Source: a virus. From it: DNA of 24,499 nt. The position numbers and the translations under genes are program-made. Shown here piece after piece: positions 1,621 through 14,268 of this stretch (positions within the stretch are counted from its first letter, which is position 1; the number at the start of each line of letters is the position of its first letter). The notes beneath the pieces are model-generated. The model was not told the DNA's origin. It saw only the letters and a list, made by a program, of their open reading frames with translations, and did no database searches. Location of the stretch: positions 1 through 24,499 of IMG/VR virus record IMGVR_UViG_3300029787_000294; one strand, 5' to 3'.

Positions 1621-1710
1621 CTCCTCCCAACTCCAGTTAAAAGAAAAATCCCCTACTTTAAGTTTAACTTTAAGTATTTAACTTTAATAAATAACTAGAA
1701 GTAGGAGGAG
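1621..1710 (-). promoter_or_regulatory. leader with Shine-Dalgarno and complementary anti-SD arm
   Basis: In the leftward transcript the leader contains CTCCTCC (1704-1710) and, 76 bases later, its exact complement GGAGGAG (1621-1627), which is the ribosome-binding site for the TTG at 1616. Pairing of the two 7-mers would hide the site. That is inferred from complementarity alone; no energy was calculated. Confidence 0.35.
1655..1690 (-). repeat. operator-like short tandem repeats in leftward leader
   Basis: Read on the minus strand, three units begin TTAAAGTTAAATAC, TTAAAGTTAAAC and TTAAAGTAGG. They contain CTTAAAG-N5-CTTAAAG with 12-base spacing (1668-1674 and 1656-1662). The integrase leader holds CTTAAAG-N5-CTTAAAG at 6914-6932, and the two 19-mers differ at two positions. 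The sequence is AT-rich, so chance contributes, but the repeat of both arms and spacing in two leaders suggests a protein-binding site. Confidence 0.4.
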
Positions 1711-1747
1711 TTTTAGTAGTACATTAAGTATTACTTATAGTATTATA
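1709..1747 (-). repeat. promoter-leader module, copy A
   Basis: The 39 bases from the -10 box of the leftward promoter into its leader match 6907-6945 (integrase promoter) at 33 positions without gaps. The core AAGTAATACTTAA contains a palindrome with arms AAGTA and TACTT around one A. It continues into ACTACTA and AACT, shared with copy B. The conservation covers sequence that is not coding in either place. Confidence 0.65.
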
Positions 1748-1769
1748 TCATGTATACTGCATTTGTCAA
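1742..1769 (-). promoter_or_regulatory. consensus sigma70-type promoter for the leftward operon
   Basis: On the minus strand, a perfect TTGACA (1764-1769) is separated by 16 bases from a perfect TATAAT (1742-1747). The predicted start is near 1735, leaving a leader of about 120 bases before the TTG at 1616. It is the best promoter in the window and points at the left minus-strand genes. If the genome is circular it could also feed the structural genes re-entering at the right edge. Confidence 0.75.
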
Positions 1770-2385: not shown

Positions 2386-2411
2386 GTAAATAGAATAACA
2401 AGTCGCATAAG

Positions 2412-2646
2412 TATAATGTGCCATTGTCTAGATGATACTAGACTAGGTTAAACCTCTACTTGCCAATCATGTGGAAACGCATAGGCTAACTCTAACGCTG
2501 ACCTTATGTCAGTATATTCGTGGGTGTCTTAAAAGGGTGGTAGATATCGACTAGAGCTTCGTGTAATTTTGTCTAGTCAGCCGAATGGATTAATCACTTT
2601 GTAGGTGGTGTAGATATGGCAACATATGTGACAAGCACCACCTATA
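2412..2646 (+). ncRNA. candidate structured noncoding RNA
   Basis: This stretch is less AT-rich than its flanks, has no credible ORF, and begins with TATAAT (2412-2417). Visible helices in order: GTCTAG/CTAGAC (2426-2431 with 2438-2443); GCC/GGC (2462-2464 with 2484-2486) enclosing ATGTG-GAAA-CGCAT (2469-2482, GNRA loop, one G-U pair); CTGAC/GTCAG (2498-2502 with 2508-2512); GACTAGA/TCTAGTC (2549-2555 with 2572-2578); and TAGGTGGTG/CACCACCTA (2602-2610 with 2636-2644) enclosing ATATG-GCAA-CATAT (2614-2627, GNRA loop). Both tetraloops are GNRA only on the plus strand, which sets the orientation. TTGTC (2424-2428) can also pair with GACAA (2630-2634), hinting at an end-to-end closure or an alternative fold. 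It may be an independent RNA or the 5' leader of the 2690 gene. I cannot assign a known RNA class. Confidence 0.5.
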
Positions 2647-2668
2647 AGTTTAAATATAATGTACCTAC
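2647..2668 (+). repeat. 22-bp perfect inverted repeat, left copy
   Basis: The 22 bases from AGTTTAAATA to GTACCTAC are the exact reverse complement of 2969-2990. They include a perfect TATAAT (2655-2660) pointing at the 2690 gene. The end, TAATGTACCTACTAGAA (2657-2673), resembles the leader module TAATGTACTACTAAAA of the leftward promoter. No good -35 box is visible at normal spacing. Confidence 0.7.
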
Positions 2669-6863: not shown

Positions 6864-6882
6864 ATTAAATTAGTTCTTGCTA

Positions 6883-6912
6883 TTGTCAATCTTATAGATA
6901 TAACTATATAAT
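6883..6912 (+). promoter_or_regulatory. sigma70-type promoter of the integrase gene
   Basis: TTGTCA (6883-6888, five of six bases) and a perfect TATAAT (6907-6912) are separated by 18 bases. Transcription should start near 6919, giving a leader of about 65 bases. The preceding 20 bases hold no terminator-like hairpin with a T tract, so readthrough from upstream is also likely. Confidence 0.6.
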
Positions 6913-6961
6913 TCTTAAAGTAATACTTAAAGAACTACTAGAACTAACTACTACTCTAGTA
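6907..6961 (+). repeat. promoter-leader module, copy B, with leader hairpin
   Basis: Bases 6907-6945 match 1747-1709 (minus strand) at 33 of 39 positions. Within it lie CTTAAAG at 6914-6920 and 6926-6932 and the palindrome AAGTA-A-TACTT (6918-6928). Just downstream, TACTAGA (6936-6942) and TCTAGTA (6955-6961) form a 7-bp inverted repeat with a 12-base loop, and GAACTA is repeated (6932-6937 is AGAACT-shifted by one base; the second copy is at 6941-6946). The whole looks like an operator for a regulator of the integrase. Confidence 0.6.
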
Positions 6962-6983
6962 ATTAACTAAAGAAAGAAGATAG

Positions 6984-8087
6984 ATGAAGTATACACATAA
7001 AGTAAAACTTAAAGATGGTTCTCATGTCTTTAGATTCGTTCCACCTAAAGATGCAAAGCTTGCAGGTGTGATGAAGAACCATACATTTAGAGATGGTCGT
7101 CAAGCTAGACATGAGATACCTAAGTTGGTGAAGATAGTAGAAGACTTTCGTAAAGGTAAGATACTTGCAGGTAACATCAGCATTAACTCTAATTTTAATC
7201 AAGTGGTTTTACATTATATGAATACTGACCAATTTAACTCTTTGTCGTCTAATTCTAGACGTACCTATGAGTATATACTGAACTCAATATGCAAGACTAA
7301 ATTATTTAGTCGTGATTTGGGTGATATAACCTTGAAATACCTCACTCCTGCCCATTGCTCTACACTTTATGAGCTTTGGGTAAGAGGTGTCAGCATAGAT
7401 AATGCCAATCAAAAGGCTAGAGTGTTCTCAATGCTGATGAACTATTGTATTTCTATTGGATTGGTTGAGTTTAACCCAATGTCAAGGATAAAAAAGAGAA
7501 GACATCAACCTAAATCTATCGTCTGGACAAAAGATCAAGTAGAACTTTTTGTAGAAACTGCTTTCTCTCAATTTAAGTGGAGAAACATAGGTCTACTAGC
7601 CTTGATGTGCTATGAGTGGGGTCAAAGACCTACAGATATTATGAATTTAAAGTGGGATTTTGTTGAACCACCTATTGAAGAAGATACAGGCATAGTAACG
7701 ATCAAACAATCTAAGAGAGGTGCTACAGTTAAGCTACCTATTGAGGATCATTTGATGAAATTACTAACACAACAACATAAGGATTGGTCTTTCCAAGAAT
7801 ATGTAATACCTCATCAGAGGCCTTCTGATGGGTGCTACAGACCTCTCTCTCCAATGCAAGTGTCAACACTTGTGAACGAGATAAAGGCTACATGTGGTCT
7901 TCCTATGGAGTTACAGATAGGATTCCTAAGAAAGACTGCAATTAATGAGATGATTGAGAGTGGTGTAGATCAGTTGGCTATCATGTCTGTGACAGGGCAT
8001 CAGAATGTACAAAGTTTGAACCCATACAATAAACATAATTACGATACTGCAAGATCGGCACTAGACATGAGGAGAGAAAGATGTTAG
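6984..8087 (+). CDS. int: tyrosine recombinase / phage integrase
   Basis: 367 residues, normal integrase size. An N-terminal DNA-binding region (1-70) is followed by a core-binding domain (about 71-170, NQKARVFSMLMNYCISIGLV) and a catalytic domain. Box I Arg is R215 in EWGQRPTDIMNLKW, the beta-hairpin Lys is probably K244 (IKQSKRG), box II Arg is R316 in IGFLRKTA, the second box II position is H339 (VTGHQN), and the nucleophile is probably Y348, nine residues after H339 as in XerD. The first box II His (HxxR) is replaced by Gly313. It presumably integrates and excises the phage. No tRNA-derived attP is visible next to it. It overlaps the next gene by seven bases. Confidence 0.9.
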   Translation: MKYTHKVKLKDGSHVFRFVPPKDAKLAGVMKNHTFRDGRQARHEIPKLVKIVEDFRKGKILAGNISINSNFNQVVLHYMNTDQFNSLSSNSRRTYEYILNSICKTKLFSRDLGDITLKYLTPAHCSTLYELWVRGVSIDNANQKARVFSMLMNYCISIGLVEFNPMSRIKKRRHQPKSIVWTKDQVELFVETAFSQFKWRNIGLLALMCYEWGQRPTDIMNLKWDFVEPPIEEDTGIVTIKQSKRGATVKLPIEDHLMKLLTQQHKDWSFQEYVIPHQRPSDGCYRPLSPMQVSTLVNEIKATCGLPMELQIGFLRKTAINEMIESGVDQLAIMSVTGHQNVQSLNPYNKHNYDTARSALDMRRERC

Positions 8088-14065: not shown

Positions 14066-14093
14066 TTGACTTTTAGTGAGATTGGAGTATAAC
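14066..14093 (+). promoter_or_regulatory. sigma70-like promoter overlapping a ribosome site
   Basis: TTGACT (14066-14071), a 16-base spacer and TATAAC (14088-14093) end one base before the ATG at 14095. The same block TTGGAGTATAACTA appears before ATG 1568 on the other strand. GGAG (14084-14087) is also a normal Shine-Dalgarno site for this ATG, so the similarity may partly reflect translation signals. If it is a promoter, it would serve the MazG/ribonucleotide-reductase group, with its start inside the 14095 gene. Confidence 0.35.
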
Positions 14094-14094
14094 T

Positions 14095-14268
14095 ATGGGT
14101 TTACGATTTGAAATAGTTTTAACTGTTGAGGTTGAGGAAGATGCAAATTTTCTATCAGTTGATGAAAGCAGTACACTAGAAGTTGTCAAGGAAAAAATAT
14201 CAGACTGCGTCTATGATTTAGATGATGTAGAGATATTGGAATCAGATATTACAAGGAGAATAGATTGA
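14095..14268 (+). CDS. hypothetical small acidic protein
   Basis: 57 residues: MGLRFEIVLTVEVEEDANFL, then SVDESSTLEVVKEKISDCVY and DLDDVEILESDITRRID. GGAG lies seven bases before the ATG and the TGA overlaps the TTG start of the next gene, so it is a good cistron. Two beta strands around a helix are likely. No family recognised. Confidence 0.65.
   Translation: MGLRFEIVLTVEVEEDANFLSVDESSTLEVVKEKISDCVYDLDDVEILESDITRRID

Follow-up and report, generated by a model that had tools for sequence, protein, structure and literature searches.

In phage lambda, one dimeric repressor acts at two promoters, through a set of neighboring palindromic sites in each of the operators OL and OR. The stoperators of Cluster A mycobacteriophages of the L5 type, as described in PMC9283540, are asymmetric, spread genome-wide and bound by monomers, and are reported to act on initiation and possibly on elongation (PMC9283540, PMC6550527). 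A different arrangement is described for HK022 in PMC9378689, where putL and putR, a pair of related ∼70-nt leader elements, lie downstream of two promoters and act as RNA through two stem-loops. According to PMC9038755, HMO-2011-type phages are a marine group that is dominant and widely distributed. In the portions of PMC9038755, PMC6918029 and PMC8528129 covered by a word search, neither promoter nor repressor is mentioned, and there is nothing on transcription control.

The window analyzed here, a stretch of 24,499 nucleotides, is the first 24.5 kb of a 25.5-kb virus record. Its leftward operon starts at 1571 (−), and its rightward replication operon is headed by a tyrosine integrase (6984–8087, +; phrog_1, E 8.7e-34). 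The integrase records closest to this one come from HMO-2011 and several Roseobacter CRP phages, at 31–38% identity. With the HMO-2011-type marine phages (PMC9038755, PMC6918029, PMC8528129) the window shares the two marks of the group, a homologous integrase and the late-gene module with a homologous first late gene; its DNA polymerase is nearest to that of CRP-6 instead (54%). PMC8528129 describes a phage group that combines CRP-6-like replication genes with an HMO-2011-type integrase, and the window would, from its sequence, fit there. Its large leftward protein has a distant relative in CRP-9, and a search for tRNA and tmRNA genes in the window returned none. The first gene of the leftward operon (1311–1571, −) encodes 86 residues, with no function assigned, and also occurs in HMO-2011 and CRP phages. 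We fetched 66 loci containing this gene, which always lies downstream of the array described below; 27 positions of the protein are invariant over 28 relatives. A scan of bacterial genomes for prophages with this gene returned one MAG contig alone, so that no host or att site was obtained. The contig with that relative (L134:485-733) is binned as Blastopirellula MAG NORP48; it is perhaps a misbinned phage contig, or perhaps a clue to a host.

The original prediction held that the leftward and integrase promoters share a block that begins at the −10 box. Alignment of the left copy (1709–1747, −) with the right copy (6907–6945, +) confirmed 33 identities in 39 positions without a gap, and no inverted repeat listed for the window is longer than this pair (I1, 40 nt). 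The assertion that such a match would not persist by chance is borne out, since the gapless score of 25 is far above those from 1000 dinucleotide shuffles of both noncoding regions (mean 10.6, maximum 16.5), with p ∼1e-7 by extrapolation for the two noncoding regions and ∼1e-5 against the whole window. The block is kept upstream of the integrase in the window and eight close relatives, and the left copy also recurs at the same place in relatives. A consensus scan recovered both predicted promoters, TTGACA-N16-TATAAT and TTGTCA-N18-TATAAT. The proposed palindromic core, AAGTA-A-TACTT, is indeed present just past the −10 box and occurs only twice in the window, once per block, but the actual palindromic unit is TACTnnnAGTA. 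The core consists of the right half of one palindrome and the left half of the next and, being a junction between two sites, it is lost where their spacing differs. The 39-nt block belongs to a larger module, which comprises a −10 box, tandem palindromes, a central stem-loop and, mostly, further palindromes.

In the left module, the −35 box TTGACA (1764–1769, −) and the −10 box TATAAT (1742–1747, −) of the leftward distal promoter together match the consensus at 12/12 positions; the −10 box is also found in relatives, and the −35 box is kept in their left regions. Putative operator 1 (ACTATAAGT, 1733–1741, −; with flanks TACTATAAGTA) follows the −10 box immediately. Putative operator 2 (ACTTAATGT, one mismatch) lies at 1721–1729 (−), and putative operators 3 and 4, both ACTTAAAGT, lie at 1667–1675 and 1655–1663 (−). 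The 115-nt leader of the window folds with a predicted −37.7 kcal/mol, in which a polypyrimidine arm (CTCCTCCTACTTCTAG, 1692–1710, −) pairs with a polypurine arm (GGAGTTGGGAGGAG, 1621–1639, −). Arm pairs of this type, altered in sequence, are also seen in the left leaders of related clades. A proximal promoter, TTGACA-N16-TATAACTA (1574–1603, −), is found at the same place in relatives. Most of the fetched loci share this layout upstream of the first leftward gene: TTGACA-N16/17-TATAAT, the palindromes, and then TTGACA-N16-TATAACTA beside the start codon.

The right module is less regular. There are two candidates for its −10 box, because the octamer TATAACTA at 6899–6906, 16 nt from a TTGCTA, is invariant in nine of nine close sequences while the TATAAT of the originally predicted promoter (TTGTCA-N18-TATAAT, 6883–6912, +) is broken in one of them (L006). 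TTGCTA-N16-TATAACTA (6877–6906, +) is a candidate for the int-replication promoter. Just two sites are recognizable in the array of the window, putative operators 1 (TCTTAAAGT, 6913–6921, +) and 2 (ACTTAAAGA, 6925–6933, +), each with one mismatch. They are followed by a predicted central stem-loop (ACTACTAGA/TCTAGTAAT, 6934–6963, +), whose CTAG arms are kept in most close relatives and altered in two (L007, L004). Few sites are recognizable after the stem-loop in the close int copies, including that of the window. The window contains TATAACTA in exactly three places (1574–1603, −; 6877–6906, +; 14066–14095, +), each preceded at 16 nt by a −35 box of the TTG type and followed closely by a gene; the third of these promoters has no palindrome array. 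In HMO-2011, CRP-1, CRP-2, CRP-345, CRP-207 and CRP-603, the element TATAACTA also directly follows the DNA polymerase gene, and it looks like a promoter type used across the group.

Comparison of 45 dereplicated modules identified the 11-bp palindrome TACTnnnAGTA as the conserved unit, with TACTTWAAGTA as its form in the clade of the window. The unit is constant, and its spacing varies, mostly within 9–13 bp with a mode of 12. The usual plan of a module is two sites, the central stem-loop and two further sites. In 33/43 modules the first site starts 0–4 nt past the −10 box, and would thus overlap the transcription start, which is assumed here from the position of that box. All 33 have the flanking T and A on both sides, although these bases were not used in site selection. 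Exact ACTnnnAGT has a density of 20.4 per kb in the modules, compared to 0.3–0.7 per kb genome-wide (∼30–60 times denser). In a more distant clade (L104, L106 and L107), the left array is built from another motif, AAGTTAAAACTAT.

The arrays are nearly restricted to two places in a genome. In four related genomes of 53–55 kb (G001, G003, G006 and G007), clusters of ACTTWAAGT are located at the late promoter and at the promoter of the int operon, with at most one further, weak cluster; the same palindromic sites are thus present at two promoters of one genome. In an unbiased scan for palindrome clusters, the left array ranked first in the window and in these four genomes, with 5–8 sites against 3–4 in shuffles. 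In G003 and G006 the right array came next, with 5 and 6 sites respectively and second rank, and in G007 it had 4 sites; in G001 it fell outside the top five, and the right cluster of the window (4 sites) was not above its shuffles. The top cluster of another genome (G005, at 45.9 kb) is a repetitive stretch resembling coding sequence, not an operator array. The same scan of HMO-2011, CRP-345, CRP-2 and CRP-207 gave no clear signal, although the left regions of some of them do contain visible repeats. Viral contigs were also scanned with the pattern TTGACA-N15-17-TATAAT-N0-3-TACTnnnAGTA. Among the at least 79 matches listed, those with three or more sites number 27; every one of these is located 199–431 bp from the first leftward gene, with none elsewhere among the matches listed.

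The two modules also evolve jointly. Using ten clade representatives, we compared the left module of one genome with the right module of another in a permutation test. The partner from the same genome was favored with p = 5e-5, which is the floor of 20,000 permutations and was obtained with module boundaries cut by hand; a composition-shuffled control gave 0.0 ± 0.6 compared to 7.4 observed, and p was 0.005 when the sites were masked. Joint change is seen most clearly in G011, which has ACCTTAAGGT at both places, and G001 and its relatives have a clade-specific leader, GTTAACCTTAA...GTTAA, at both places. The clear exception is L017, in which the two int-side sites are non-palindromic and are reverse complements of each other. 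The parallel change of both clusters across clades suggests that one regulator may switch both gene blocks.

As the original prediction stated, the window contains no recognizable CI-like repressor; none of the scanned ORFs matches a repressor family in Pfam or PHROGs. A search for the regulator among the small ORFs, as the original prediction proposed, identified none, and the early ORFs are not common to the module-bearing relatives. Clustering of the early ORFs of seven genomes with phmmer gave no family present in all, and only the integrase and thymidylate synthase were present in five. The small core genes also present in CRP-9 and CRP-13 comprise the first two leftward families (the two that were tested), a 178-aa protein beside the polymerase, and proteins of 57 and 70 aa; none of these proteins matched a DNA-binding family. 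The first late gene was considered as the regulator and left without an assigned function: its product has no Pfam, PHROG or PDB fold match, its AlphaFold model is of moderate confidence only (pLDDT 71.5) with no informative fold match, and its conserved last helix is acidic. An early ORF common to G003 and G007 only (L114:3288-3803 and L121:7998-8561) has two HTH-like stretches recognized by eye, and is possibly the source of a match to a D5-like regulator PHROG found in two members. Elsewhere in the window, a small ORF (2678–2938), with relatives in L004 and L008, is enclosed by a perfect 22-nt inverted repeat (2647–2668 and 2969–2990), the 16-nt cores of which are present in no other fetched locus. 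The noncoding region at 2400–2650 (+) has a strong predicted stem near 2600–2645 (fold z-score −2.0), with no corresponding Rfam family.

The modules are probably paired operator arrays at which a single dimeric DNA-binding protein, most likely a repressor, regulates both promoters. Each module would consist of a host-type sigma-70 promoter with an array of palindromic sites right after its −10 box. A regulator bound at the first site would cover the presumed transcription start and block initiation, and the further sites may allow cooperative or roadblock binding. With one array on the late leftward operon and the other on the rightward replication operon, one regulator could hold back, or time, the late (virion and lysis) genes and the replication genes together. 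The left half of the first site, upstream of the presumed +1, is as conserved as the right half, which points to recognition as DNA. Against operators alone, folding of the leaders is somewhat stronger than under a null that preserves the operators; the weak right array of the window and the non-palindromic int-side sites of L017 also do not fit well, nor does the negative result of the regulator search in the scanned window ORFs and early genes.

A serious rival, although we consider it unlikely, is that the module is a structured 5′ leader, which would act as RNA either by rendering the polymerase resistant to terminators, similar to HK022 put, or by shielding the 5′ end of the mRNA. The excess folding (mean z −1.7 for left modules, n = 28, and −1.3 for right modules, n = 17), giant hairpins in several clades and the polypyrimidine/polypurine arms of the left leader of the window all agree with such a leader. 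So does the presence of two copies heading two long operons, as with putL and putR (PMC9378689), and the sites of L017 have remained complementary even though they are not palindromic. However, the right copy of the window shows no excess folding (z +0.5), nor do those of several close relatives, and the conserved left half of operator 1 would be outside the RNA. Local palindromes with a 3-nt center would be better suited to a DNA-binding dimer, and no credible Rfam match was obtained; a match to RF04157 scored 25.4 compared to a gathering score of 100 and was taken as chance. We therefore favor operators over a leader on account of the conserved upstream half-site, while the folding of the leaders and the complementarity in L017 keep the RNA in consideration. 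Tandem ∼12-bp repeats in AT-rich noncoding DNA beside promoters could also be iterons of replication origins fired by local transcription, and the left array of the window does adjoin a 1-kb noncoding region. The presence of two distinct arrays, each locked to a −10 box with its first repeat over the presumed start site, makes this improbable. There is likewise only a small chance that the sites bind a global regulator of the host recruited by the phage. Such a protein would be consistent with the failure to find a shared phage regulator gene and with the retention of the half-site ACT...AGT across a wide range of relatives, but a phage-borne partner would better account for a site that shifts between clades at the two promoters simultaneously. 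The CtrA site is TTAA-N7-TTAA, which the variable spacing does not fit. More broadly, this marine group might time replication and virion production by a repressor-free paired cis module, whether RNA leader or host factor, in int-bearing and int-less phages alike; this, too, we regard as unlikely.

The position of the right array next to int raises a further explanation, in which the palindromes are arm-type sites of the integrase around an attP core formed by the central inverted repeat, and the same protein would use the left copy for regulation or recombination. The order of sites, inverted repeat and sites does resemble attP, and an integrase was found in 14 of the 16 related records searched, the other two being incomplete. 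This explanation is nonetheless largely refuted, and we regard it as very improbable, since CRP-9 and CRP-13 have no PF00589 protein and retain both arrays. These arrays, of their own variant (ACTATTAGT, ACTAATAGT), are located at the late promoter and within the rightward cluster, ahead of genes leading into replication. Moreover, the clade formed by L015, L016 and L021 has the array at the head of the operon, roughly 0.4–1.2 kb upstream of int, and L104 and L107 have an integrase with no array beside it. The same int-less isolates bear on the suggestion of a lysis-lysogeny circuit. Since both keep their arrays at the late and replication promoters, a role in lysogeny is not needed, and a circuit specific to lysogeny is not supported. 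Of the proposal that one regulator controls integration and leftward expression, what stands is a shared, conserved and co-evolving element where a repressor would block initiation; the tie to lysogeny does not. Shared control of both promoters is thus well supported. As the array marks the replication operon, int would be controlled because it is the first gene of that operon, and not for lysogeny.

An array that is easy to recognize predicts which operons are co-regulated, supplies a bait for the regulator, and offers a direct handle on transcription control in HMO-2011-type phages, described as a dominant marine group in PMC9038755. It also cautions that shared operators beside an integrase need not mean a lysogeny switch. 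A two-array system in this marine group, with and without integrase, is unmentioned in the parts of the literature covered by our word search.

One regulator with two arrays of sites is an arrangement of a known kind, represented by lambda and the mycobacteriophages. Compared to OL and OR of lambda, the promoters here head the late and replication operons, 5 kb apart in the window, and no repressor gene was found among the window ORFs or the shared early genes. The persistence of both arrays in the int-less CRP-9 and CRP-13 also separates them from a lysogeny switch of the lambda type. In Cluster A mycobacteriophages of the L5 type, a single phage repressor likewise has many copies of its site, according to PMC9283540 and PMC6550527; in contrast to those dispersed, asymmetric sites, the ones described here are symmetric, tandem and gathered at two loci. 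Compared to HK022 put, the most conserved feature here is a DNA palindrome, and the right copy of the window has no excess of RNA pairing.
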